The notes under the pieces are model-generated. The model was not told the DNA's origin and did not search any database. It saw only the letters and a list, made by a program, of their open reading frames with translations. 64,000 nucleotides of DNA from Stenotrophomonas maltophilia (GTDB lineage: Bacteria > Pseudomonadota > Gammaproteobacteria > Xanthomonadales > Xanthomonadaceae), in assembly GCF_006970445.1 (NCBI RefSeq), contig NZ_CP033877.1, positions 504,750 to 568,749 on the forward strand, written 5' to 3'. A program made the translations under genes and the position numbers. Within the stretch, counting starts at the first letter, position 1, and the number at the start of each line of letters is the position of its first letter. This document shows positions 2,136 to 51,242 of the stretch, one piece after another.

Positions 2136-2480
2136 ATGCCCCGTCTGCTGATTGCGTGCGTTGTCGTGCTGGCGCTGGCCGGCTGCGAAAAATCCCGCAA
2201 CACCTCGATCACCCGCACCCAGGCCAACGGCGTGGATACGCTGTACAGCAAGGGTACCGTCGTCGATGGCGAGGCACGCTTCCAGTGCATCGCCAGCAGT
2301 AGCGGCGCCTGCCACTACCTGGTACTTGATCCAACCTGCAGCCCCGATGCCGCGTGCGCCACACCGCCGCTGCGCCGGTTCGCGGTTGCGGCCGGCAAGA
2401 CCGAGGCCATGCGTGGCCTGCCCGACGGCTTCCGCCAGTGCGTCAGCCAGGACCCGATAGAACAATGCCACCGTGAGTGA
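2136..2480 (+). CDS. Small predicted lipoprotein
   Basis: A 114-residue exported protein of unknown function. It begins with a short signal sequence ending in the lipobox LALAGC, so it is probably a lipid-anchored envelope protein. The mature part contains four further cysteines, two of them in the PTCSPDAAC stretch, which suggests disulfides. ATG 2136 is preferred over ATG 2130 because GAGG (2125-2128) is then 7 nt upstream instead of 1. It lies 31 bp after the LytTR regulator on the same strand. Its stop codon sits inside the hairpin at 2463-2494. Confidence 0.72.
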   Translation: MPRLLIACVVVLALAGCEKSRNTSITRTQANGVDTLYSKGTVVDGEARFQCIASSSGACHYLVLDPTCSPDAACATPPLRRFAVAAGKTEAMRGLPDGFRQCVSQDPIEQCHRE

Positions 2481-2494
2481 TCACGGTGGCATTG
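2463..2494 (+). terminator. Perfect 14-bp hairpin at the end of the lipoprotein gene
   Basis: CAATGCCACCGTGA (2463-2476) and its exact complement (2481-2494) enclose a 4-nt loop that holds the TGA stop. No T-tract follows on the + strand, so this is more likely a transcript-end stabiliser or Rho-assisted stop than a classic intrinsic terminator. Confidence 0.5.
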
Positions 2495-2519
2495 TGGGTC
2501 CCCCCGCTTCCCCGAAGGG

Positions 2520-3134
2520 TCAGTAGGCAGGTTGCAGCGTCAGGTCGTGATGGTGCTCGGTCTCGCCCACATGGTTGAGGCGACCGACCAGTTCGGAGTG
2601 CTGCTTCATCCGCCCGATCTCGGTCATGATGCGGATGTCCTCGTGGCGCAGTTCGCGCTTGGCGGTGACCGCCTGCTTGTAGTCCAGCACTTCCGGGTAG
2701 TGCTCGGCCAGGTCCAGTGCCTCGGCGACATGCTCGACGCTGTCAGCCTTGGAGCTGATGCGGGCGCGGCTGTTGAAGGCCTTCATCCAGCGCTCGAAAC
2801 CAGCGGTGCGATCGAACATGTTGGCCATGAACCAGATCACGAACAGGATCGAGATCCACGAGCCGAACACCACGACCACGCGGGTGAAGGTGATGTGGTA
2901 ATCGTCGCGCCACAGGTAGTTGGTGATCAGGCCGAGGATCAGCAGCGAAGCCGCCTGCCAGCCGACGATCGAGGCGATCAGCCACTGGCACTTGGCCTGG
3001 GCCAGCACAGCCACTTCATCGCGGATCTGCTGCTCGCTGAGGCTGCGCCAGTGCGCGACCTGTTTTTCGAACGGGCTGCTGTAGAGCTCGTTGTCGCGAA
3101 GCAGTAGTCCCAAACCCTTGAACAAAGCAATCAT
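2520..3134 (-). CDS. Uncharacterised two-TM membrane protein
   Basis: A 204-residue protein I do not recognise. It has two hydrophobic helices (about residues 48-70 and 85-108), separated by a short charged loop and flanked by soluble segments. The C-terminal half is helical and charged and ends with a His-rich stretch (ETEHHHD). The open frame runs far upstream, but ATG 3134 is supported by AAGGAG close before it and by the MIALFKG N-terminus; the upstream extension is out-of-frame shadow of the next gene. It is a single gene, convergent with the 2136-2480 lipoprotein gene. Confidence 0.75.
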   Translation of the reverse strand: MIALFKGLGLLLRDNELYSSPFEKQVAHWRSLSEQQIRDEVAVLAQAKCQWLIASIVGWQAASLLILGLITNYLWRDDYHITFTRVVVVFGSWISILFVIWFMANMFDRTAGFERWMKAFNSRARISSKADSVEHVAEALDLAEHYPEVLDYKQAVTAKRELRHEDIRIMTEIGRMKQHSELVGRLNHVGETEHHHDLTLQPAY

Positions 3135-3443
3135 GGCTGGCTCCTTGTGGAACGTGCGTCGATCAGCGTTGGACGGTGTGGCGGGTTCAGTTCTAGCACT
3201 TCCAGCGAGCCGTGCAATGGGCGGAATGCCAAGCGGCGTAAGGGTTTTGTCTGAATGGGTGAATCCTGTTGCGTCGCAACATTGCGGTCGCAGCCTGCGA
3301 CAGGATGTCGCAGGGTGAAACGTGCTGCGGCCGCACATGAAACCGTGGCTGAGTGCGGAGACTCGCCGCCGCCGCCGTGATCGCCCAGAATCGGGGGCGA
3401 CCGCGCAACCTGCGGCCGTTCTTCCGCCTTTCCTGGATCTGTG

Positions 3444-4373
3444 ATGCCGGCTCTGCTGCAGCGACTCTCCCGCCCCGTCACCGCGCCGATCCGGCGCTGG
3501 GTACTGGAGGCCTTTCCACGTGGCCAAAGCGGCATCGATTACGACCATCCGCAGGGCGACCCGGGCTGGTTCGGCCCGGACAGCGTCACCTGGCGGCTGC
3601 ACGCCGAATTCCCCTCGATGCTGGCCGGTGGCCTGTGTGCGCTGATGCTGCAGACCCTGCACCCGCGCGCGCTGGCCGGGGTCTACGACCACTCCAATTT
3701 CCGCCAGGACCTGGTGGGTCGCCTGCGCCGCACCACGGCCTTCGTTGCCGGCACCAGCTATGCGCCCAGCGGCGAGGTGGAGGCCCTGGTGGCCAAGGTG
3801 CGCCGCATCCATGCGCAGATCCGCGGGCAGACCGGGCAGGGCGAGCCCTACGCAGCCGACGATCCGCAGCTGCTGACCTGGGTGCATGTGACCGAGGCCT
3901 TCGGTTTCCTGCAGGGCTTCCGCCGTTACGGGCGCGAGGTGCCGGAGCACATCGCCGATCGCTACTACGACGAATACCGCTGCGTGGCCGAGGCACTGGG
4001 CGCGGTGGATGTGCCGCGCAGCGAAGCGGAAGTGGCGGCGTACTTCTGCGCCCGGCAGCCTGAGCTGCGCGTCGACGAACGCTCACGCGAGGTGCTGGAG
4101 GTGTTGTCCGGGGTGCGCCTGCCGGTACCGGTGCCGGGGCTGTCGCGCGAAGTGTTCCTCGGCGCCGGTGCGGCGCTGCTGCCGGACTGGGCCGAAGGCA
4201 TGCTTGAACGCAATGCACGCCAGCGTGCGCAGGCTGCAGCGTCGGCGAAGCTGATGCAGGGCATGGCGCCGCTGTTCCGCCGAGCGCTGCCCGATGGCCT
4301 GGCCAGCCGCGCCTGCGCGCGCATGGGCGTGCCGGTGGCAGTGTTGCGCGAGTGGCCCACCATTCCCAGGTAG
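3444..4373 (+). CDS. DUF2236 / MpaB-type oxygenase family protein
   Basis: A 309-residue member of the DUF2236 family, which includes the fungal MpaB protein and bacterial latex-clearing-like heme proteins. Family-type signatures are visible: LHPRALAGVYDHSNF near residue 73 and a His-containing VTEAFGF stretch near residue 150. The family is thought to be oxygenases, but substrate and cofactor are not evident here. GTG 3441 directly precedes ATG 3444; I chose the ATG. The stop codon TAG (4371-4373) is part of the GTAG end of a SMAG palindrome, so the repeat contributes the last codon. Confidence 0.8.
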   Translation: MPALLQRLSRPVTAPIRRWVLEAFPRGQSGIDYDHPQGDPGWFGPDSVTWRLHAEFPSMLAGGLCALMLQTLHPRALAGVYDHSNFRQDLVGRLRRTTAFVAGTSYAPSGEVEALVAKVRRIHAQIRGQTGQGEPYAADDPQLLTWVHVTEAFGFLQGFRRYGREVPEHIADRYYDEYRCVAEALGAVDVPRSEAEVAAYFCARQPELRVDERSREVLEVLSGVRLPVPVPGLSREVFLGAGAALLPDWAEGMLERNARQRAQAAASAKLMQGMAPLFRRALPDGLASRACARMGVPVAVLREWPTIPR

Positions 4374-4475
4374 GTGCCAACCTTGGTTGGCACGCGTTGC
4401 GCGATGAAGCTCCATCCACGCATGGCGTGGATCTACTGACAGCATGGTTTTGGTGGGTGCCAACCAAGGTTGGCA
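4370..4475. repeat. Cluster of three SMAG-type GTAG palindromes
   Basis: Three short palindromes fill the gap between convergent genes: GTAG plus a GTGCCAACC/GGTTGGCAC hairpin (4370-4393), ATCCACGC/GCGTGGAT ending CTAC (4414-4436), and a GTGG variant with GTGCCAACC (4453-4475). Such GTAG-ended hairpins are the REP-like family typical of S. maltophilia. Confidence 0.75.
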
Positions 4476-4490
4476 GCTATCGGGAAATGA

Positions 4491-4512
4491 AACGGGCGCC
4501 TTGCGGCGCCCG
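4491..4512 (-). terminator. Hairpin downstream of the M13 peptidase gene
   Basis: ACGGGCGCC and GGCGCCCGT with a 4-nt TTGC loop form a strong GC hairpin about 12 bp beyond the stop codon of the minus-strand peptidase gene. On the minus strand it is followed by TTTCATTTCC, a weak T-tract, so it is a probable terminator. Confidence 0.6.
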
Positions 4513-4523
4513 TTCGGGTTACA

Positions 4524-6635
4524 TCACCACACCTTGACCCGCTTGTCCGGGGCCAGGTACAGCTTCTGGCCTTCCTTCACTTCGAACGCCGGGTACCAGG
4601 CGTCGATGTTGCGCACGGTCAGTGCGCGGAACTGGCCCGGTGCATGCACATCGGTCAGCAGCGAGTTGCGCAGTGCCTGCTCGCGGCTCTTGCTGCGCCA
4701 CGCCTGGGCGAAGCCGAGGAAGAAGCGCTGGTCCGGGGTGAAGCCTTCCAGGGTCTGGCCCGGCTTGCCCTGCAGCGACAGCTGGTAGGCATCGTAGGCG
4801 GTACCCAGGCCAGCCACGTCGGCGATGTTCTCGCCCAGGGTCAGCTTGCCGTTCACGTGCACGCCGGGGAACGGCTCGTAGCTGCTGAACTGCGCGGCCA
4901 GCGCATCACCGGCAGCGTTGAACTGCTTCAGGTCCTCGGCGGTCCACCAGTTGTGCAGCTTGCCGGTTTCGTCGAACAGCGCGCCGGCATTGTCGAAGCC
5001 GTGGCTGATCTCGTGGCCGATCACTGCGCCGATGGCGCCGTAGTTCACTGCGTCGTCGGCAGCACCGTCGAAGAACGGCGGCTGCAGGATCGCGGCCGGG
5101 AACACCAGGCGGTTCTCCAGCGGCACGTTCATCGCATTGATGGTCTGCGGCAGCATCGCCCACTCGCTGTGGTCGACCGGCTTGCCCAGCTTGGCGATGT
5201 TGCGCTGGTACTCGAACAGCTCGGCGCGCTGTGCATTGCCCAGCGGGTCATCACGGCGGATTTCAAGGCCGGTGTAGTCACGCCACTTCTCCGGATAGCC
5301 CATGCCCACGGTCAGGCCGGTGACCTTGGCCTTGGCATGCGCCTTGGTCTGCGGCGACATCCACGACAGCGCGTCGATGCGCTTGGCGAAGGCGGCGATG
5401 ATGTTCTTCGCCATCTCGTCCGCGCGTTCCTTGGTCCTGGCGTCGAAGTGCTTCTCGACATAGCGCTTGCCGATGGCTTCGCCGACGGCATGGTTGGCAT
5501 CGTCCACCGCGCGCTTCCAGCGGTCGCTCTGCTGCGGCGTGCCGCTCAGTGCGGTGCCATGGAAGGCGAAGCGTGCATCGGCGAACTTCTTCGGCAGGTA
5601 AGCGGCGGCACGGTCCAGTGCGTGGAAGGCCAGGTAGTCCTTCCAGGCGTCCAGCGGCTCGGTGGCGACCAGCTTGGACAGGCCGGCTACGGCCTTGGGC
5701 TGCCACACGATGAAGTCCTGCTGGTTGCCCAGCGCGGCCGCATCGAGGAAGGCGTTCCAGTCCATGCCCGGTGCCTTGGCATTGAAGTCGGCCTGGGTCC
5801 AGGGGTTGGCACCCTTGGTCACGTCGTTGGTTTCTTCCTGGGTGGCATGCGCCTGCGCGATCTTGGTCTCCAGCGCGAGGATGCGCTGCGCCTTGCCGGC
5901 CGGGTCGGCGACGCCGGCCAACTGCAGCATCTGCGCGATGTAGGCCTGGTACTGCTTGCGCAGCTCGGCCATGCGGCCATCGCCCAGGTAGAAATCACGG
6001 TCGGGCATGCCCAGGCCGCCCTGCACCAGGTACGGCGCGGTGCGGTCCGGCTGCAGCATGTCCACCGACACCCACAGGCCGAACAGGCGGTCGGTGTAGA
6101 AGTTGGTGGCGTTGAGCAGATCGACGTCGGCGCGCACGTCGCCGCCGAGGGCGCGGGCCAGCCCGGCCTTGTCGGCGATCGCATCGATGGCCTTCAGCTG
6201 CGGCTGCACCGGCGCGAGACCGTGCTGCTCGATGCCGGCTTCGTCCATGTAGGCGGCATAGTAGTCGCCGATCAGCTTGTCGTCACCGCTGGCCTGGGTG
6301 TTGCCGGCCGCCCCTTCCAGGATGGCGCGGGTGTCGGCCAGCGTCTTCTCGGCAATGACATTGAAGCTGCCGAAGCGCGAGCGGTCGGCCGGAATCTCGG
6401 TGTTCTTCACCCAGGTGCCGTTGGCGAAGCCGAAGAAGTCATCGCCGGCAGCGATGCTGCGGTCCATGCCGCTGGCATCGAAGCCGAAACTGCCCAGCAT
6501 CGGCTTGGCCGCAGCAGGGGCGGCATCGGCCGGCGCGGTGGTACCGGCGGCCGGGTCGGCCGGGCGGTCACAGGCGGCCAGGGACAGGCTGGCAACAATG
6601 GCCAGCGCCAGGATGGGACGGCGCAGCTTGGACAT
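4524..6635 (-). CDS. pepO: M13 (neprilysin/PepO) family zinc metallopeptidase, lipoprotein
   Basis: An endopeptidase of family M13 that cleaves short peptides, predicted to be anchored in the envelope. The signal sequence ends in a lipobox (SLAAC, about residue 22). The zinc site is intact: VIGHEISHGFD near residue 540 and ENIADVAG near residue 601. The substrate-binding region carries NAMN where most M13 enzymes have NAYY or NAFY, followed by the conserved FPAAILQPPFF. The usual C-terminal CxxW is reduced to KVW without the cysteine. The length of 703 aa is typical. It is monocistronic, with a hairpin downstream. The fold is clear; the physiological substrate is unknown. Confidence 0.93.
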   Translation of the reverse strand: MSKLRRPILALAIVASLSLAACDRPADPAAGTTAPADAAPAAAKPMLGSFGFDASGMDRSIAAGDDFFGFANGTWVKNTEIPADRSRFGSFNVIAEKTLADTRAILEGAAGNTQASGDDKLIGDYYAAYMDEAGIEQHGLAPVQPQLKAIDAIADKAGLARALGGDVRADVDLLNATNFYTDRLFGLWVSVDMLQPDRTAPYLVQGGLGMPDRDFYLGDGRMAELRKQYQAYIAQMLQLAGVADPAGKAQRILALETKIAQAHATQEETNDVTKGANPWTQADFNAKAPGMDWNAFLDAAALGNQQDFIVWQPKAVAGLSKLVATEPLDAWKDYLAFHALDRAAAYLPKKFADARFAFHGTALSGTPQQSDRWKRAVDDANHAVGEAIGKRYVEKHFDARTKERADEMAKNIIAAFAKRIDALSWMSPQTKAHAKAKVTGLTVGMGYPEKWRDYTGLEIRRDDPLGNAQRAELFEYQRNIAKLGKPVDHSEWAMLPQTINAMNVPLENRLVFPAAILQPPFFDGAADDAVNYGAIGAVIGHEISHGFDNAGALFDETGKLHNWWTAEDLKQFNAAGDALAAQFSSYEPFPGVHVNGKLTLGENIADVAGLGTAYDAYQLSLQGKPGQTLEGFTPDQRFFLGFAQAWRSKSREQALRNSLLTDVHAPGQFRALTVRNIDAWYPAFEVKEGQKLYLAPDKRVKVW

Positions 6636-17771: not shown

Positions 17772-18239
17772 TCAGCCCGCCACGCCGCTTTCTGCGCCGC
17801 CACGCCGCAACGGGTCGGGCCAGGGCTCGCCATTGCCGGTGAACGAAAGTGAGACGGAGTTCAGGCAGTGGCGCTCGTAGGTGGGCGGAGGACCGTCCGG
17901 GAACACGTGGCCGAGGTGGCTGCCGCAGCGCGCGCAGGTGATCTCGGTGCGCACCATGCCATGGCTGGTATCGCGGATCTCGCGCACGTGCGCCGGGTCG
18001 AACGGGGCAAAGAAGCTGGGCCAGCCGGTGCCGGAATCGAACTTGGTGCTGGAGCGGAACAGCGGCAGCGCACACAGCCGGCAGCAGTAGACACCCTCGC
18101 GCTTGTTGTCCAGGAATACGCCGCAGAACGGCGCCTCGGTGCCGTGCTGCAGCAGCACGCGGCGCTCCTCGCTGCTGAGGCCGGCGATCAGCGCCTCGGT
18201 CTGGGTGGCAGTGGGGGGCGTCAGGTCGAAGGCAGTCAT
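17772..18239 (-). CDS. msrB: Peptide-methionine (R)-S-oxide reductase MsrB, cytosolic
   Basis: MsrB reduces the R-diastereomer of methionine sulfoxide in proteins. The SelR domain carries two zinc CxxC pairs (CRLC near residue 53 and CARC near residue 102) and the catalytic Cys 125 in RHCLNS. There is no signal peptide, so this is the cytoplasmic copy; a second, exported MsrB lies at 46136-46711. Start ATG 18239 follows GGAG. The length of 155 aa is normal. It is monocistronic next to the motAB promoter region. Confidence 0.95.
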
Positions 18240-43611: not shown

Positions 43612-44349
43612 TCAGCGCATCGGCACCAGCGCCGCGTCGCGCCGGTACAGCGCCGGGAACTGCTTGCCCAGTGCGGCCAGCTTCGGTGCGTCGTAGTAGC
43701 GGATGTAGGCCGCCTGCGGGTAGTTCGTCATGTAGTTCTGGTGGTAGCTCTCGGCCGGGTAGAAGCGCTGGCCGCTGACCAGCTGGGTGACGATCGGCGC
43801 GCGGTAGCTGCCGGCCTGGCCGAGCTGGGTGATGTAGGCGCGGCTGGCAGCCTGCTGGCGTGCGTCGTCACTGAAGATCGCCGAGCGGTACTGGCTGCCG
43901 TGGTCCGGTCCCTGTCGATCGAGCTGGGTCGGGTCGTGCACCACCGAGAAGAACACCTGCATCAGCTGGCCATAGCTGACCTGGCGCGGGTCGTAGTCGA
44001 TCTTCACGGCTTCGGCATGACCGGTCTGACCACCGCTGACGCGCTCATAGCGCGCGTTGGCCGCGCTGCCACCGATGTAGCCGGACACCGCATTGCTCAC
44101 GCCTTTCACGTGCTGGAACACGCCCTGCACGCCCCAGAAGCAACCACCGGCGAACACCACGCTGGCATGGGTGGCGTCATCGCGGAACGCGGCGTCGCCG
44201 CTGGGCGCAGGTAGCGCCTTGACCTGCGCGCTGGCCTCGACCGGTGCCGCGACCGCGCTGTGGTCGACCAGCAGCACGCCGGTGATCAATGCGGCAGCCA
44301 CCAATCCGGCGACACCGGCGGCGATGCCCTGTTCAAAGGAGAGTTTCAT
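43612..44349 (-). CDS. msrA: Peptide-methionine (S)-S-oxide reductase MsrA, membrane-anchored
   Basis: MsrA reduces the S-diastereomer of protein methionine sulfoxide. An N-terminal hydrophobic helix (about residues 8-28) directs it to the envelope. The catalytic Cys 70 lies in FAGGCFWG, followed by family motifs SGYIGGS and TGHAEAV. Likely no C-terminal resolving cysteines are present, so it may depend on an external thiol donor such as DipZ. The length of 245 aa is larger than cytosolic MsrA because of the leader. GGGAGG precedes ATG 44349. Third gene of the msrB-dipZ-msrA operon. Confidence 0.93.
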   Translation of the reverse strand: MKLSFEQGIAAGVAGLVAAALITGVLLVDHSAVAAPVEASAQVKALPAPSGDAAFRDDATHASVVFAGGCFWGVQGVFQHVKGVSNAVSGYIGGSAANARYERVSGGQTGHAEAVKIDYDPRQVSYGQLMQVFFSVVHDPTQLDRQGPDHGSQYRSAIFSDDARQQAASRAYITQLGQAGSYRAPIVTQLVSGQRFYPAESYHQNYMTNYPQAAYIRYYDAPKLAALGKQFPALYRRDAALVPMR

Positions 44350-44363
44350 GGTGTCCTCCCGGT

Positions 44364-46133
44364 TCAACCGAAGGTGAAGGCGTAGGCCTGCACGCCGGCA
44401 TCGAGGAATTCGATCTCGAAGCGATGCGGGCCGACCGCGCCGCGCTGGCGGACCAGCTGGTACAGGCGGTGCTCGTCGACCACGCCACTGCCATCGGTGC
44501 CGACATCACTGCCGGCATCGGCGGCGGGCAGCGGCTTGCCGTCCAGCCAGACGCGGAAGCGCACTGGCTTGCCGTCCTCGCTCGGTGCCAGCACCAGGTG
44601 CAGGTCGCGCGCATGGAACTGGAAGGCAATGCGGCCACCGGCCTGTTGCAGCTGTGCGTCTTCATCGGTGACGGTCCAGCGCCCGGACAGCCCCCACTGG
44701 TTCAACGCGAGGGTGGCTGGCAACGTGTAGTCGAACGCAGCGTCGCTGCGCTGCCCGCCGGGCGAGGCGAACTGCTCGGCACGGGCGTGGCCCAGGTAGG
44801 TTTCCGGCGAACGCAGGTTGCCCATGTCGGCCTGCGCGGCCACGCCCTTCAGGTCGGCGGCAGCGGGATCGGCCGGTGGCGGCAGATTGGTCTGGCCAGC
44901 TTCGGTCAGCAGGCGACGGATCATCTGTTCCGAGCGCGCGTAGTTGCCTTCGCCGAACTGGTGGCCGCGGATGTTGCCCTGCGCGTCGACGAAGTACTGC
45001 GCCGGCCAGTAGCGGTTGTTGAACGCGCGCCAGATCGTGTACTGGTTGTCGAGCGCCACCGGGTACTCGACCTTCAGCTGCTGCACCGCCTTCATCACAT
45101 TGCGTGGGTCACGTTCGAAGGCGAACTCCGGCGTGTGCACGCCGACCACCACCAGGCCGTGGTCGCGGTAGCGGCGTTCCCATTCGTGCACGAACGGCAT
45201 CGCGCGCAGGCAGTTGATGCAGGAGTACGTCCAGAAATCGACCAGTACCACCTTGCCGCGCAGCTGCTGTGCACTCAGCGGCGGGCTGTTGAGCCAGCCG
45301 GTGGCACCGTCCAGCGCGGGCAGGGTGCCTTCCACCGGCAGCGGTGCATCGGCCGCGGCGTTGGCATCGGCCATCATCATCATCGGCGGTGCCGCCGGCT
45401 GCGCGCCGGGTACCGCATCCAGCAGGCCTTGCTCGATGCGCGCGGTGCTGACCGTTGAAAGGCGGGTGAGCAGGCCGGTATCCCAGCCCATGCCGATCGC
45501 TACCACCGCCAGCAGGGCAGCCACACCCAACACCTTGCGCAGTGCATCGCCGAGGCCAAGCCGCGCCTGCAGTGCACGGAACACACGACCGCCCACCCAC
45601 ACCGCCAGTGCCAGCGCGGTGATCGCGCCCAGCGCATACGCCAGCAGCAGGGTACTGGTACCCACGCTGGCGCCATGCAGGGCGGCGCCGGTCAACACCA
45701 GGCCGAGGATCGGCCCGGCGCACGGTGCCCACAGCAGGCCGGTGGCGATGCCGATCAGCAGCGAGGTCCACGCGCCACCGTGCCCCGCGGCATCCGCTGC
45801 ATCGGCACGCGCGCTCAGGCGGGCACCCACGCGCTGGAATGGCGCCAGCAGATGATCGGCAAGTCGAGGCCACAGCAGGGCGACCGCGAACAGCGCCATC
45901 AGCAGCAGGGCGATCCAGCGTCCAACCTGATTGGCCTGTGCCACCCATTGGCTGCCCACCGCGGCCAGGCTGGCGACCACGGTGAAGGTCAGTGCCATGC
46001 CCAGCAGCAGCGGTAGCGTGCTGCGCAGGAACGGACGGTCGGCACGCGCGAACACGAACGGCAGCACCGGCAGGATGCAGGGGCTGAGCAGGGTCAGCGC
46101 GCCCCCCAGGTAGGCAAGCAGCAACAGCAGCAT
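44364..46133 (-). CDS. dipZ: DipZ: CcdA-type membrane domain fused to thioredoxin domain
   Basis: A 589-residue electron-relay protein. The N-terminal DsbD/CcdA-like domain has about seven hydrophobic helices and the membrane cysteines in LLSPCILP and WAPCAGPILG. A periplasmic thioredoxin-like domain follows with the redox pair CINC in WTYSCINCLR (about residues 300-307), and then a C-terminal beta-rich module typical of DipZ. It should carry cytosolic reducing power to envelope proteins. Starting 2 nt after the msrB stop and ending 14 bp before msrA, it probably reduces both enzymes. Confidence 0.9.
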   Translation of the reverse strand: MLLLLLAYLGGALTLLSPCILPVLPFVFARADRPFLRSTLPLLLGMALTFTVVASLAAVGSQWVAQANQVGRWIALLLMALFAVALLWPRLADHLLAPFQRVGARLSARADAADAAGHGGAWTSLLIGIATGLLWAPCAGPILGLVLTGAALHGASVGTSTLLLAYALGAITALALAVWVGGRVFRALQARLGLGDALRKVLGVAALLAVVAIGMGWDTGLLTRLSTVSTARIEQGLLDAVPGAQPAAPPMMMMADANAAADAPLPVEGTLPALDGATGWLNSPPLSAQQLRGKVVLVDFWTYSCINCLRAMPFVHEWERRYRDHGLVVVGVHTPEFAFERDPRNVMKAVQQLKVEYPVALDNQYTIWRAFNNRYWPAQYFVDAQGNIRGHQFGEGNYARSEQMIRRLLTEAGQTNLPPPADPAAADLKGVAAQADMGNLRSPETYLGHARAEQFASPGGQRSDAAFDYTLPATLALNQWGLSGRWTVTDEDAQLQQAGGRIAFQFHARDLHLVLAPSEDGKPVRFRVWLDGKPLPAADAGSDVGTDGSGVVDEHRLYQLVRQRGAVGPHRFEIEFLDAGVQAYAFTFG

Positions 46134-46135
46134 CG

Positions 46136-46711
46136 TCAGGCTCCGGAAACAGGGGAAGAACCGACCGGCACCCGCCAGCCGTCGGCAGTGCCGCCATCCG
46201 TGGCACCGGGAACGAACACCATCGCCGCACCGTTCATGCAGTAGCGGAGCCCGGTTGGGCGTGGGCCATCGTTGAACACATGGCCAAGGTGGCCGCCGCA
46301 GCGACGGCAGTGCACCTCCACCCGCAGCATCCCGAAGGTGACGTCGCGGTCTTCGCCGATGGCGTTGTGCAGCGGCGCCCAGAAGCTGGGCCAGCCGGTG
46401 CCGCTTTCGAACTTGGTGGAGGAGGAGAACAGCGGCAGTGCGCAGCCGGCGCAGGCGAAGGTGCCCTGCCGGTGTTCCTTGTTGAGCGGGCTGCTGTAGG
46501 GGCGTTCGGTGGCCTGCTGGCGCAGCACCGCGTACTGCGCCGGGGTCAGCTGCTGGCGCCACTGCGCATCGCTGTGCATGACCTCGAACTGTCGCGACGG
46601 ACGCGCTTCGGCGGCGGCCGGGGCGGCGCGGCTGCAGGCCCCCAGGCCAAGCAGGCCGGCGGCGGTGGCAACACCGCCCAGGCCCAGCAGGTGGCGACGG
46701 GACAGGGACAT
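46136..46711 (-). CDS. msrB: Peptide-methionine (R)-S-oxide reductase MsrB, Tat-exported
   Basis: An exported MsrB. The N-terminus has a twin-arginine motif (SRRHLLGLGG) and a possible lipobox (GLGAC, about residue 24), so it is probably a Tat-exported lipoprotein. The SelR domain has zinc CxxC pairs (CAGC and CRRC) and the catalytic Cys in LRYCMNGA (about residue 157). Its 191 residues exceed cytosolic MsrB because of the leader. First gene of the operon, divergent from a two-component system. ATG 46711 gives the Tat signal; an upstream extension does not. Confidence 0.93.
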   Translation of the reverse strand: MSLSRRHLLGLGGVATAAGLLGLGACSRAAPAAAEARPSRQFEVMHSDAQWRQQLTPAQYAVLRQQATERPYSSPLNKEHRQGTFACAGCALPLFSSSTKFESGTGWPSFWAPLHNAIGEDRDVTFGMLRVEVHCRRCGGHLGHVFNDGPRPTGLRYCMNGAAMVFVPGATDGGTADGWRVPVGSSPVSGA

Positions 46712-46855: not shown

Positions 46856-47575
46856 ATGTCCGCCAAACGTGTCCTGATCGTCGAAGACGATGCCCACATC
46901 GCCGACCTGCTGCGCATGCATCTGGGCGATGAGGGCTACGACGTTGCCCACGCTGCCAGTGGCGATGCCGGCCTGCGCCTGCTCGAGCAGGACGGCCCGT
47001 GGGATGCGCTGGTGCTGGACGTGATGCTGCCCGGCGTGGATGGCCTGCAGGTGTGCCAGCGTGCACGCGCGATGGCGCGCTATGTGCCGATCATCATCAT
47101 CAGCGCGCGTGGCAGCGAAACCCAGCGCATCGTCGGCCTGGAACTCGGCGCGGATGATTACCTGGCCAAGCCCTTCTCGATGCCGGAACTGGTGGCACGG
47201 GTGCGCGCACTGCTGCGCCGCGCCGAGGCGATGGCGCAGAGCGCGCGCATCGATGCCGGCGCGATCGAACTGGGTGGGCTGCAGCTGGACCCGGTTGCAC
47301 GCACGGCCTCGGTGGACGGCAGCGCGCTGGAGCTGACCCCGCGCGAGTTCGACCTGCTGCTGTTCTTCGCCCGCCATCCAGACCAGGTGTTCGCACGCAT
47401 GGAGCTGCTCAACCAGGTCTGGGGCTACCAGCACGATGGCTACGAACACACGGTCAACACCCATATCAACCGCCTGCGCAGCAAGATCGAGCCTGATCCG
47501 GCCAATCCGCGGCGGCTGCTGACGGTGTGGGGCCGCGGCTACAAGCTGGTCGACCCGGCCGGGGCGGCGGCATGA
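46856..47575 (+). CDS. OmpR/PhoB-family response regulator
   Basis: A 239-residue regulator with receiver domain (acidic residues EDD at 10-12, Asp 55 in VLDVMLPG, Lys in YLAKPF) and a C-terminal winged helix ending RRLLTVWGRGYKLVDP. It overlaps its kinase by 4 bp. Located divergently to msrB-dipZ-msrA, it may control envelope oxidative repair in the manner of HprR, though that is inference. The long open frame upstream is shadow. ATG 46856 was chosen. Confidence 0.9.
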   Translation: MSAKRVLIVEDDAHIADLLRMHLGDEGYDVAHAASGDAGLRLLEQDGPWDALVLDVMLPGVDGLQVCQRARAMARYVPIIIISARGSETQRIVGLELGADDYLAKPFSMPELVARVRALLRRAEAMAQSARIDAGAIELGGLQLDPVARTASVDGSALELTPREFDLLLFFARHPDQVFARMELLNQVWGYQHDGYEHTVNTHINRLRSKIEPDPANPRRLLTVWGRGYKLVDPAGAAA

Positions 47576-49041
47576 TCAGGCCGAACCTGTGGCAGAAGCT
47601 GGCAGCAGTGATCGCCGCGCTGATGCTGACGTGCTGCATGGCGCTGCTGGCGCTGCAGATGCGTGCCAACACCCGCCACGAGCAGGAGGTGGTGCAGCGG
47701 CTGTCGCTGGGCCTGGCCGAGCACATCGCCCAGCGCAGCGAACTGATGGATACCAGCGGCATGCGCGATGCCGCGGTGCGCGCACTGTTCGGCCAGTTGA
47801 TGGCGGTCAATCCCAGTGTCGAGGTCTACCTGCTGGACGACCAGGGCCGCATCCTCGGCCACGATGCGCCCAGTGGGCACCTGGTGCGCAACCAGGTGGA
47901 CGTGGCGCCGCTGCGTCGCCTGCTGGCCGGTGCACCGTTGCCGATCCTGGGCGACGACCCGCGCAGCGCCGATGGCCGCAAGGTGTTCAGTGCCGCGCCG
48001 TTGATCGTGCAGGGCCGGCCGGCGGGTTACGTGTACGTGGTGCTGGTGGGCGAGCACCGGCAGATGCTGGCCGATGACCTTGCCGCTGGCAGCCAGTGGA
48101 ACACCACGCTGTGGTCGGTGGTGCTGGTCGGCGGCCTCGGCCTGCTGGCCGGGCTGGTGGCGTTCTACTGGGTGACCCGTCCGCTGCGGCGGCTGACCCG
48201 GCGCATCCAGGCCTTCGACATCGACGCACCCACGCCGTTGCCGCCGCCGGAGCCGCTGCGCCCCGGTGAGCGCGACGAGCTGGTGATCCTCGAACACGCG
48301 CACGCGCAGATGGCACAACGGCTGGGTGAGCAGTGGCAGCAGCTGCGCCAGCAGGACCTGCAGCGCCGCGAGCTGGTCGCCAACATCTCGCACGACCTGC
48401 GCACGCCGTTGTCGTCGCTGCATGGCTACCTGGAAACGCTGGCGTTGAAAGACGCCACGCTGTCACCGGACGAGCGCCGCCGCTATCTCGGCATCGCGCT
48501 GGCACAGAGCGCCAAGGTCGGCCGGCTGGCGCGCGCGCTGTTCGAGCTGGCCCGGCTGGAACATGGCGAAGTGCGGTTGGAGTGGGAGGTGTTCGCACTG
48601 CCGGAACTGCTGCAGGACGTGCTGCAGAAGTTCGAACTGGCGGCGCAGGCGCGCGGCCAGCAGCTGCACGCGGCATTTCCACCCGGCCTGCCGCTGGTGC
48701 GCGCCGACCTCGGCCTGGTCGAGCGCGTGCTGACCAACCTGCTCGACAACGCGCTGCGGCATGCGCCCGACGGCGGCCAGATCGAGGTGCGCCTGCGTGC
48801 GACCCCGGACAGCGTGGAGGTCAGCGTGGCCGATGACGGCCCCGGGGTGGCGCCAGCGCTGCGTACCCAGCTGTTCCAGGCACCGGCCGCGCTGGGGGCT
48901 CGGCGCGGGGAGAACGGTGGCTTGGGCCTGTTGATCGTGCAGCGCATCGTGCAGCTGCACGGCCGCCACATCGAACTGCGCGACAGCGAGCGTGGCGCGC
49001 TGTTCGTGTTTGCCTTGCCGCGTGCGGAACCGGCGGCCTAG
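47572..49041 (+). CDS. Sensor histidine kinase (HAMP-HisKA-HATPase)
   Basis: A 489-residue two-TM sensor kinase. First helix about residues 10-30, periplasmic sensor of about 150 residues, second helix near 185-205, HAMP, HisKA with His in NISHDLRTPLSSLHG, and HATPase with NLLDNALRHA and GGLGLLIV. The pocket motif DDGPGVA is present. Cognate of the upstream regulator (4-bp overlap). It is convergent with the second kinase: the two stop codons share bases at 49038-49041. Confidence 0.92.
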   Translation: MIRPNLWQKLAAVIAALMLTCCMALLALQMRANTRHEQEVVQRLSLGLAEHIAQRSELMDTSGMRDAAVRALFGQLMAVNPSVEVYLLDDQGRILGHDAPSGHLVRNQVDVAPLRRLLAGAPLPILGDDPRSADGRKVFSAAPLIVQGRPAGYVYVVLVGEHRQMLADDLAAGSQWNTTLWSVVLVGGLGLLAGLVAFYWVTRPLRRLTRRIQAFDIDAPTPLPPPEPLRPGERDELVILEHAHAQMAQRLGEQWQQLRQQDLQRRELVANISHDLRTPLSSLHGYLETLALKDATLSPDERRRYLGIALAQSAKVGRLARALFELARLEHGEVRLEWEVFALPELLQDVLQKFELAAQARGQQLHAAFPPGLPLVRADLGLVERVLTNLLDNALRHAPDGGQIEVRLRATPDSVEVSVADDGPGVAPALRTQLFQAPAALGARRGENGGLGLLIVQRIVQLHGRHIELRDSERGALFVFALPRAEPAA

Positions 49042-50390
49042 CAGGCCGCTTCGCACTCGACGATGCCGCCGGATTCCAGCGGCAGGTGCAGGCGGATACA
49101 GGCACCGCCCAACTCCGAATCGGTCACCTCGACGTGGCCACCATGCTTGTCGGCGACCACCTGCACCAGCGCCAGGCCAAGGCCGAAACCGGGGCTGCCC
49201 GGGTCCAGCCGGACATAGGGCTGCAGTACCTGGCCGCGCAGTTCGGGCGCGATGCCGGGGCCGTCGTCCTCCACCTGCACGCACAGCCAGCCGTCATTGA
49301 CCGTGCTGGCAATACGGATCTGCCGGCGTGCGTAACGCAGTGCATTGCCGAGCAGGTTGCGCAGCGCCAGCTCCAGCATGTGCCGGTTGACGTTGACCAG
49401 GCCCACCGGCGACAGCGCCTGTTGCACCGGCATTGGCAACGGTGCGAACTGGGCCACCACGCCGCGCACCAGCGCCGCCAGCTGCAGGCGCTGGCGCGTC
49501 AGTTGATGGCAGCGACCCAGCGCGGCGTACTCGACGCCGGCATCGGTCAGGTGCTGCAGCCGATCCACATCGGTGCGCAGCCCGCCCAGTGCATCGCGCT
49601 GCACATCATCAAGCGCGGTGTCCTCCAGGTCGGCCAGGCCGAAACGCATCCGCGCCAACGGCGTGCGGACTTCGTGCGCCACCGCCTGTGCCAGCACGCG
49701 CTGGCTTTCCAGCAGCTGCTGCAGCTGCTCGGCCATATGGTTGAAGGCATTGGCCAGCGGCCGCACCAGCGCGGTACCGGCACGCGGCGCGCGGGTATCC
49801 AGCTGGCCGTCGCGCATCTGCCGTGCCGCCTGGGCCAGCTGCGAGACGTCGCGCCACAGCCGATAGACCATCACGTACATCGGCAGTGCCACCGCCACCA
49901 TCAGGATCAGCAGCAGGATCGCCACACCGGATACTTCGCTGTCCTGCCAACCCTCGTCCGGCAACGCTTCGTCCAGCGGCCCCAGCATCACCGCATAGTC
50001 GCTGTCGCCGATCCGCTGCAGGCTGCGCATGTGCTCCAGGTCGATCTGCACGCGGCCATTGTTGAACGGCGGGCGTTGGCTGGCCGGCAACTCCTTCACT
50101 GCCTCGGCCAGCGGCACCATGCGCAGCGCGTAGGCGAAATCGGCGTCCAGTTCGCGTGCCAGCACCGGCCACTGGTCGCGCGGGGTTTCGGCGAAGCGAT
50201 GCTGCAGCAGCGCATGCGTGCCGCGCATCTCGGCCTGCAGTCCGGCTTCGGTGCGGTCTTCCAGCAGGGCATCCCAGGCCCACAGGCCCAGCACGATCAA
50301 CAACAGGTGGGCGACCAGGAAGCCGATGCCGTAGCGCAGGAAGTGGAAGGCGTGGCCGCGCATCGCCGATGGCGTGCGCTTCATCCCCAT
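49038..50390 (-). CDS. Sensor histidine kinase, RstB-like
   Basis: A 450-residue sensor kinase. TM helices lie near residues 19-41 and 155-177, with a periplasmic domain between; HAMP, HisKA with His in AVAHEVRTPLARM, and HATPase with NLLGNALRYA and FGLGLALV follow. The overall layout resembles RstB. It overlaps the rstA-like regulator (starts ATG 50390 or 50384; stop of the regulator at 50381). It is convergent with the other kinase, the stops overlapping by 4 bp. Confidence 0.88.
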   Translation of the reverse strand: MGMKRTPSAMRGHAFHFLRYGIGFLVAHLLLIVLGLWAWDALLEDRTEAGLQAEMRGTHALLQHRFAETPRDQWPVLARELDADFAYALRMVPLAEAVKELPASQRPPFNNGRVQIDLEHMRSLQRIGDSDYAVMLGPLDEALPDEGWQDSEVSGVAILLLILMVAVALPMYVMVYRLWRDVSQLAQAARQMRDGQLDTRAPRAGTALVRPLANAFNHMAEQLQQLLESQRVLAQAVAHEVRTPLARMRFGLADLEDTALDDVQRDALGGLRTDVDRLQHLTDAGVEYAALGRCHQLTRQRLQLAALVRGVVAQFAPLPMPVQQALSPVGLVNVNRHMLELALRNLLGNALRYARRQIRIASTVNDGWLCVQVEDDGPGIAPELRGQVLQPYVRLDPGSPGFGLGLALVQVVADKHGGHVEVTDSELGGACIRLHLPLESGGIVECEAAC

Positions 50391-51070
50391 GCCGAGCGGC
50401 TGAACAGGTAGCCGCGGCCACGGACGGTCTTGATCCGTTCCGGCTGCTCGGGGTTGTCGCCCAGCTTGCGGCGCAGGCGCGAGATGCGGGCATCGATCGA
50501 ACGGTCCAGGCCGTCGAAGGCGATGCCACGCAGGCCGCGCAGCAGCGCGTCGCGGTCCAGGATCTGGCCGGCGTTGCTGGCCAGCAGGAACAGCAGGTCG
50601 AACTCGGCCGTGGTCAGCTCCAGCAGGCCGCCCTGCAGGTGCACGTTGCGGGTGGACGGGTCGATGTTCAGCTCGCCGAAGCGCAGGCTGCCGTCACGCG
50701 GCTCGACCCGGCGGTGGCGGCGCAGGTGGGCCCGCAGCCGCGCCAGCAGCACCCGCGGTTCGATCGGTTTGCCGATGTAATCGTCGGCCCCCAGCTCCAG
50801 TCCCAGCACCTGGTCGATGTTGTCGGTGCGGGCGGTCAGCACGCAGATGATGCCGTCATAGTGGGGCCGGATCTGCCGACACACTTCGAAACCATCCTGA
50901 TCGGGCAGGCCGACATCGAGCAGCACCAGGGCTGGCTTCTCGGCCAGGATGCGGGCCACTGCGCGCTCGCCGCTGCGTTCGTGGGCCACCTGGTAGCCAT
51001 GCCGCTGCAGGTAGTCGCTGACCATCGTTCCCAGGCGGGCATCGTCTTCGACCAGTACGATATCCAGCAT
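50381..51070 (-). CDS. OmpR-family response regulator, RstA-like
   Basis: A 229-residue regulator: receiver with Asp 52 in VLLDVGLPDQDG and Lys in DYIGKPI, and a winged-helix effector domain ending TVRGRGYLFS. GGAGG stands about 9 nt before ATG 51070. It overlaps its kinase gene. Direct GTTAC repeats at 51243-51257 in the upstream gap could be its binding site. The target regulon is unknown. Confidence 0.9.
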   Translation of the reverse strand: MLDIVLVEDDARLGTMVSDYLQRHGYQVAHERSGERAVARILAEKPALVLLDVGLPDQDGFEVCRQIRPHYDGIICVLTARTDNIDQVLGLELGADDYIGKPIEPRVLLARLRAHLRRHRRVEPRDGSLRFGELNIDPSTRNVHLQGGLLELTTAEFDLLFLLASNAGQILDRDALLRGLRGIAFDGLDRSIDARISRLRRKLGDNPEQPERIKTVRGRGYLFSRSAWG

Positions 51071-51242
51071 TTCCAAGGCCTCCGTGGGCGCAAACGTACC
51101 TCCACGGCACGAGCGCGGCGATGCTATCCCAGCCTGCGGGCCGCCCGGGTCCCGGGGGCGGGCGCCATTCAGCCGGGGTTGCTGGCGCACGGGCCGGGTC
51201 TCAGTCCCGGCAACAACTTGGCGTCCAGCATAGCCTGTTGCT

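Follow-up and report, generated by a model that had tools for sequence, protein, structure and literature searches.

An msrB-dipZ-msrA operon and an adjoining Orh-type two-component system in Stenotrophomonas maltophilia: a probable module for thiol-based envelope methionine repair

Introduction

Systems in which exported methionine sulfoxide reductases (Msr) are fed via CcdA and an extracytoplasmic thioredoxin are of a kind already known. This study concerns a locus of this kind in Stenotrophomonas maltophilia. It consists of an msrB-dipZ-msrA operon and a divergent two-component system related to OrhK/OrhR, and lies in a stretch of 64,000 nucleotides of contig NZ_CP033877.1 (positions 504,750 to 568,749). 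This whole stretch is called the window.

The closest described systems are the following. CcdA-Etrx-SpMsrAB2 of Streptococcus pneumoniae joins a CcdA relay and an extracytoplasmic thioredoxin to exported MsrA and MsrB activities (PMC3914529). CcdA-Trxe-MsrAB of Haemophilus influenzae has the periplasmic Msr, the thioredoxin and CcdA in one operon (PMC9404787). The genes msrAB2-ccdA-eTrx-modRS of Fusobacterium nucleatum form one cluster, and MsrAB2 is reported there without an export signal (PMC12288474). OrhK/OrhR of Escherichia coli CFT073 directly activates c3566-c3568 upon peroxide; these genes encode a putative cytochrome b561/molybdenum (Mo)-oxidoreductase Msr and a methionine-rich peptide, and hemolysin genes are co-transcribed with them (PMC8550376). 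The peptide MrpX is cited as a hypochlorite sink (PMC8315932, PMC8550376).

A preliminary description of the window had named Neisseria PilB and MsrPQ as the known precedents. That list was incomplete; the pneumococcus, Haemophilus and Fusobacterium systems are closer, and the same logic is therefore already known. The description also overlooked the operator and the two-component system next to the operon, as well as the MsrB lipobox, the methionine-rich linker and the 1-Cys chemistry. A search of PubMed Central open-access text found no paper that brings DipZ, Msr and an Orh-type system together, which is no proof of absence; one paper, PMC8396259, contains the terms DipZ and methionine sulfoxide reductase, each a single time.

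Results

Organization of the locus

Gene order, export motifs, the cysteine inventory, the homology of the two-component system and a conserved operator together suggest that the locus is quite probably a five-gene, self-regulated, Orh-type and oxidant-responsive module for thiol-based envelope methionine repair. From these features we infer the signal, the regulator binding, the electron path and the substrates. The components are listed below.

46136..46711, minus strand: msrB, 191 amino acids, Pfam SelR 161.6 bits
44364..46133, minus strand: dipZ, 589 amino acids, CcdA-like membrane part, thioredoxin domain and C-terminal PF17991 domain
43612..44349, minus strand: msrA, 245 amino acids, Pfam PMSR 190 bits
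46770..46794, no strand assigned: putative operator TCACG-N15-CGTGA, 58 nucleotides from the msrB ATG and 61 nucleotides from the response-regulator ATG
46856..47575, plus strand: OmpR-family response regulator, OrhR homologue, 58% identity to CFT073 over 236 positions
47572..49041, plus strand: sensor histidine kinase with a PAS-like periplasmic sensor, OrhK homologue, 43% identity to CFT073 over 484 positions

The gaps are 2 nucleotides between msrB and dipZ and 14 nucleotides between dipZ and msrA, and a GGAG lies 5' of each of the three ATGs. These coordinates and gaps, together with the Pfam domains, confirm the three-gene row of the preliminary description. The host genome (4.55 Mb) has two MsrA loci, two MsrB loci and one other DsbD_TM protein above the Pfam cut-off. 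A search of this genome for Oxidored_molyb (MsrP-type) gave no match, and the control gave matches in E. coli.

The two-component system and its relatives

Of the new results, the regulatory link is the strongest. Homology to OrhK/OrhR includes the sensor domain, and an inverted repeat is found in the Msr promoter. The regulator reached 153.8 bits against a cut-off of 353 for HprR.

The N-terminal 255 residues of the kinase were searched in 299 Pseudomonadota genomes, and 45 matches were found in 44 genomes. All seven matches at 53% identity or more adjoin dipZ and msrB. Among the other 38, an MsrA-MsrB fusion is the neighbour in 16 and cytochrome b561 with a Mo-oxidoreductase in 3. An MsrA domain lies within 5 kb of 22 of the 45 matches, compared with about 0.25 expected by chance, as calculated from MsrA counts with one kinase per genome and contig ends ignored. 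The count of 22 is inflated by genome kinship, since many of the MsrAB cases come from one family (f32). Nonetheless, several families and two Msr chemistries are represented among the neighbours. In a kinase tree (78 rows, Pseudomonas thinned), the DipZ-linked kinases, five of the six Mo-linked kinases and three Msr-less kinases form one branch, with a Shimodaira-Hasegawa-like approximate likelihood ratio test (SH-aLRT) value of 100.

Met77 of the kinase is kept in 95/95 family rows. In 26 kinase N-termini with identity down to 27%, 20 columns are invariant, and Met77 is the sole methionine among them. The model of the kinase sensor, with a mean predicted local distance difference test score (pLDDT) of 85.7, puts Met77 in a helix of the PAS-like domain. 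The Foldseek matches of this model were weak, the best being a chemoreceptor model (E-value 9e-4), followed by CusS (1.4e-3) and CitA (3.6e-3). Met77 is a candidate sensor residue, and 19 other columns are equally invariant. The cysteines of the first transmembrane segment were also considered and rejected as not family-wide; Cys21 is present in 54/54 DipZ-linked rows, but is V, T or A in the MsrAB rows.

Relatives of the system were also seen on plasmids. A related two-component system with b561 and Mo-oxidoreductase was found on E. coli plasmids in 73 records with an identity of at least 99%, and in 70 of these the match spans 80% or more of the query; on pKMi006_2 (locus L184 in our numbering, 2464-6464) a Met-rich peptide is also present. 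The kinase sensor matches Klebsiella and Shigella plasmids as well. A Burkholderia pyrrocinia replicon has a related two-component system with no Msr annotated within 6 kb, which fits regulation in trans without showing it. Loci of the spondin type fall within L146-L183 (e.g., L159:3841-5281), and spondin and Msr are found together at L155 and L156.

The putative operator

The promoter alignment used 39 parsed intergenic regions from 53 loci with a divergent two-component system and msrB, window included. The exact anchor is present in 37 of the 39 regions and absent in L060 and L066. The consensus is AgttaTCACgaaT..TTtAAcT...cGTGAGGAtT. A weight matrix was built on the 37 anchored sites, and five shuffled windows used as controls gave best scores of -18.5 to -10.0.

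Outside the training set, the matrix matched the Mo-type loci L146, L147, L184 and L185 with scores of 41.7-50.3 and the dipZ locus L053 with 38.2. The operator was also found in all six Burkholderia msrB-dipZ-msrA loci without an adjacent two-component system (33.6-49.7). Among the enterobacterial dipZ-msrA loci, one scored 37.7 and two scored 10.9 and 17.5. In the search of the host genome, 46770-46794 was the one perfect palindromic match; five further sites with two mismatches were taken as chance (reversed-pattern control: 1). The window element has the spacing and the half-site core of the putative OrhR site, and it recurs in Pseudomonas, Burkholderiales and enterobacterial loci.

MsrB and MsrA as predicted exported 1-Cys enzymes

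Export of both enzymes was judged from motifs alone. The window MsrB has the twin-arginine motif SRRHLL, and RR is present in 76/77 rows; the exception, L079, is cut by a contig end. The twin-arginine leader proposed earlier thus holds at the motif level. The window MsrB also has a lipobox, LGAC (Cys26), which is present in only 3/77 rows. The N-terminal segment of the window MsrA has a hydrophobicity of 2.41 on the Kyte-Doolittle scale, and a hydrophobic 19-mer above 1.6 is present at the MsrA N-terminus in 36/67 rows. The N-terminal helix described before is therefore present, while its reading as an anchor is one of two options, as the helix may be a cleavable Sec signal or an anchor. Both MsrA and MsrB are predicted to be exported.

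The window MsrB has CxxC pairs at 87/90 and 135/138 and the catalytic Cys158. These five cysteines (two CxxC pairs and the catalytic RYC) are present in the MsrB domain of 76/77 rows, L079 again being truncated. GCGWP is the motif that holds the resolving cysteine of 2-Cys MsrB (PMC8945050); the resolving position is a threonine in 77/77 aligned rows (Thr105 in the window). The window MsrA has a single cysteine, Cys70, and exactly one cysteine is found in the catalytic domain of the dipZ-adjacent MsrA in 67/67 rows (window and 66 loci). The MsrA and MsrB counts are not independent of one another from row to row, since many rows come from closely related sequences. The second MsrA of the host genome has four cysteines, two of them near the C-terminus. 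The envelope MsrA and MsrB both seem to be 1-Cys enzymes that need a thiol from another protein for the resolution of the sulfenic acid, because each has one redox cysteine and MsrB has threonine at the resolving position. DipZ, being in the same operon, would be the natural thiol donor.

The sequence features support the view of the preliminary description that these genes form a set dedicated to the envelope, which covers both sulfoxide isomers and brings an electron relay of its own. Independence from DsbD, also proposed there, is a conjecture in a genome with one other DsbD_TM protein above the cut-off. The two other proteins on which it drew were both found elsewhere in the window:

17838-18179, minus strand: other MsrB of the genome
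40655-41137, minus strand: GAF-domain protein from the domain scan, of the kind called fRMsr in the preliminary description

DipZ

The Pfam search of DipZ gave Thioredoxin_10 at 165.4 bits, together with Redoxin/AhpC-TSA and PF17991. DsbD_TM reached 20.2 bits, under its cut-off of 27.1. The CcdA assignment is upheld despite this sub-threshold score because Cys19 and Cys138, set in the motifs SPCI and PCAGP, are invariant in 14/14 aligned DipZ. The thioredoxin motif is C305-I-N-C308. The earlier assignment of DipZ as a CcdA part joined to a CINC thioredoxin agrees with these domains and cysteines.

The best sequence match of the soluble part is Mycobacterium tuberculosis DipZ (5cyy, E-value 9e-67). 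This part resembles 2hyx and 5cyy, and the protein has the CcdA, thioredoxin and PF17991 parts of the DipZ family. By sequence, the thioredoxin domain also matches Etrx2 (2yp6, E-value 9e-8) and the thioredoxin domain of an MsrA/MsrB protein (2jzr, E-value 4.6e-5), which we take to be Neisseria PilB. Both related domains feed Msr enzymes, which would argue for the proposed repair module. The AlphaFold model of DipZ has a predicted template modelling score (pTM) of 0.42, and its TM-score against 5cyy is 0.52, normalized to target length. The window DipZ is 98% identical to a Stenotrophomonas geniculata protein. No relative was confirmed when IMG/VR was scanned with six peptide patterns of DipZ.

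Distribution of DipZ and its neighbours

DipZ is patchy in distribution; 34 of the 299 sampled genomes match at an E-value of 1e-30, a good part of them through the thioredoxin part only. The neighbours of dipZ were counted in the best 80 of at least 583 genome-collection matches, and a two-component system was counted when both of its genes lay no more than 4.5 kb away, with identities of at least 50%/60%. The two-component system is present in 48 of these 80 loci, with msrB and msrA in 46, with msrB in 1 and with msrA in 1. The remaining loci have msrB and msrA (9), msrB only (10), msrA only (3) or none of these neighbours (10). In this search for the triplet in other genomes, as suggested in the preliminary description, msrB and msrA adjoin dipZ in 55 of the best 80 loci. 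The five-gene set is found in 11 genera, namely Pseudomonas, Delftia, Paraburkholderia, Paracidovorax, Caballeronia, Comamonas, Burkholderia, Rugamonas, Acidovorax, Duganella and Trinickia.

A further 20 DipZ loci were inspected, one of which has no full DipZ. The other 19 have all five genes (5), msrB with the two-component system (1), msrB with msrA (1), msrB (3), msrA (1) or no such neighbour (8). The Enterobacter and Pluralibacter loci L108, L118 and L123 have dipZ-msrA with no recognised msrB adjoining, and their operator is full or partial. The rhizobial DipZ without Msr neighbours (L138, L140-L142 and L144) adjoins another, divergent two-component system.

In the window, a second two-component pair stands end to end behind the kinase, and the sensor half of its kinase was found in only 2/299 genomes:

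49038-51190, minus strand: second two-component pair

The methionine-rich linker of DipZ

A periplasmic linker joins the CcdA and thioredoxin parts of DipZ:

45294..45470, minus strand: DipZ periplasmic linker, residues 222-280, MMMM at 251, 4 Met in the linker of the window protein

In the AlphaFold model, residues 218-261 have a pLDDT below 50. Linker methionines were counted from the alignment. The 82 Msr-linked DipZ (window included) have a mean of 4.84 Met in 74.7 residues (6.5%), compared with 1.35% in the rest of the protein. The 18 DipZ without Msr neighbours have a mean of 1.17 Met in 61.1 residues (1.9%). The raw difference (Mann-Whitney p 4e-7) was rejected as proof, as it is confounded by phylogeny; with five independent pairs the tree-based test had no power, and none of the Met thresholds 2, 3 and 4 came near significance.

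Separate small secreted Met-rich peptides, counted with the looser of two filters, were found in 22 of the 40 non-DipZ loci of the kinase family (L146-L185). By class, they are present in 13/16 MsrAB loci, 3/3 Mo loci as well as both plasmid loci, 3/13 spondin loci (one weak) and 1/6 others. Among 100 DipZ loci, only L053 has such a peptide; its DipZ linker has no Met, and the operator lies between the peptide gene and the regulator gene. No separate small Met-rich secreted protein was found in the window.

Discussion

In the proposed module, the kinase would sense periplasmic damage caused by an oxidant (peroxide or chlorine) and would phosphorylate the regulator. The regulator would bind TCACG-N15-CGTGA between the two gene sets and activate msrB-dipZ-msrA. 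MsrB and MsrA would be exported and reduce R- and S-methionine sulfoxide. With one redox cysteine each, their cycle would end as sulfenic acid. Cys305 of DipZ would attack the sulfenic acid and Cys308 would resolve the mixed disulfide. The CcdA part (Cys19/Cys138) would re-reduce the DipZ pair with electrons from cytoplasmic thioredoxin.

Several observations weigh against this proposal. Among the 45 kinase relatives, 13 adjoin spondin-domain genes and no Msr, and 6 have neither Msr nor spondin, several of these being near contig ends; two of the latter loci, L148 and L149, are in the same branch as OrhK. The DipZ sample leans to Pseudomonas, its first query row being L010. The potential OrhR site TCACA-N15-TGTGA is a prediction in the original study, with an electrophoretic mobility shift assay on a 260-nucleotide probe (PMC8550376). 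Among the 37 training sites, that of the window has the lowest score (29.7), and the next scores 42.1. The matrix scored below 0 in other Msr loci without the two-component system, such as Caballeronia L096/L097, L063 of the window's own family and the Rhizobiales, and -6.6 in the Mo locus L182. The element was not found in the MsrAB or spondin loci, nearly all of which scored below 0 (best 11.7). The weight of the operator comes from its conservation, because the pattern TCACR-N15-YGTGA alone is expected by chance 0.29 times per 64 kb.

The locus could instead be an ordinary thiol-based envelope Msr set, with the adjacent two-component system serving something else and its proximity being inherited linkage. 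The dipZ loci of the best 80 that lack the two-component system and have msrB alone (10), both msr genes (9) or msrA alone (3) would fit this explanation. It is improbable in view of the OrhKR precedent, of the operator kept in the six Burkholderia loci, and of the kinase relatives at 32-38% identity (sensor part) that adjoin MsrAB fusions, others adjoining the Mo-type enzyme. DipZ might also serve mainly cytochrome c maturation or general periplasmic disulfide reduction, with another reductant recycling MsrA and MsrB. DipZ relatives bear the name cytochrome c biogenesis protein, and 10 of the best 80 DipZ loci have no Msr neighbour. Against this stand the operon gaps of 2 and 14 nucleotides, the kinship of the thioredoxin domain with Etrx2 and an MsrAB thioredoxin domain, and the result that no Ccm-type domain was found in the eight operon and neighbour proteins scanned. 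We consider a main role of this sort to be about as improbable as inherited linkage.

The boldest idea is a hypothesis on the linker. The disordered linker could be DipZ's own sacrificial methionine sink, taking up oxidant and being re-reduced by the MsrA and MsrB that the same DipZ keeps reduced, which we regard as possible and rather doubtful. On this hypothesis, one Orh-controlled operon would form a catalytic scavenging loop, the fused counterpart of the separate peptides in the Mo- and MsrAB-type loci of the kinase family. If true, the linker would be a tethered, self-repairing antioxidant. We lean slightly towards a copper-binding segment or a mere low-complexity spacer. The linker Met number ranges from 0 to 13 and is below 3 in 20 of the 82 Msr-linked DipZ, including 8 of the 55 rows with the two-component system; most of these 8 also lack a separate Met-rich peptide, which speaks against a sink, and the phylogeny-corrected test with its five pairs leaves room for either of these readings. 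The Met enrichment relative to the rest of the protein and to DipZ without Msr neighbours argues against them, as does L053, where the linker is Met-less and a secreted Met-rich peptide is encoded separately next to the operator.

The proposed module connects a family of regulators, for which one E. coli study is the source here, with the repair of envelope methionine by two chemistries across Pseudomonadota, namely thiol MsrA/MsrB (as separate genes or fusions) and the molybdenum-type enzyme. It also points to a possible role of DipZ in these bacteria, in which the protein bears the name of a cytochrome c biogenesis protein. Concrete items for testing follow from it, namely the operator, the candidate sensor residue and the cysteine chemistry.

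Comparison with known systems

PilB and MsrPQ were rejected as the nearest precedents in view of the three separate genes, the result of the Oxidored_molyb search and the closer CcdA/thioredoxin systems. Neisseria PilB, whose name also occurs in PMC12288474, has a related thioredoxin domain, but it is a single fusion whereas the window has three genes. MsrPQ/HprSR of E. coli likewise places an envelope Msr under a two-component system; unlike the window set, that Msr is a Mo enzyme, unmatched in the host genome.

The pneumococcal system shares the CcdA relay, the extracytoplasmic thioredoxin and the exported MsrA and MsrB activities. In pneumococcus, one fusion protein combines MsrA and MsrB, and the thioredoxins are lipoproteins of their own, whereas the window encodes MsrA and MsrB as separate 1-Cys proteins and has its thioredoxin joined to CcdA within DipZ. 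Haemophilus also has Msr, thioredoxin and CcdA in one operon, but with an MsrAB fusion and a separate thioredoxin. In Fusobacterium, Msr, CcdA, an extracellular thioredoxin and a two-component system are likewise clustered; the likeness to ModRS is one of gene arrangement, and MsrAB2 differs in having no export signal. The sink peptides MrpX and BcrX are, like the linker, Met-rich secreted segments by an envelope Msr (PMC8315932), and the window segment differs in being a linker inside DipZ.

OrhK/OrhR is the CHARACTERISED relative of the window two-component system, with a homologous kinase and regulator, an adjacent Msr operon and a 15-nucleotide-spaced inverted repeat. Its Msr is instead cytochrome b561 with a Mo-oxidoreductase, accompanied by a separate Met-rich peptide and hemolysin genes. 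The features by which the window set appears to differ from the known systems are the separate 1-Cys MsrA and MsrB, the DipZ fusion relay and the Orh-type two-component system with a shared putative operator.

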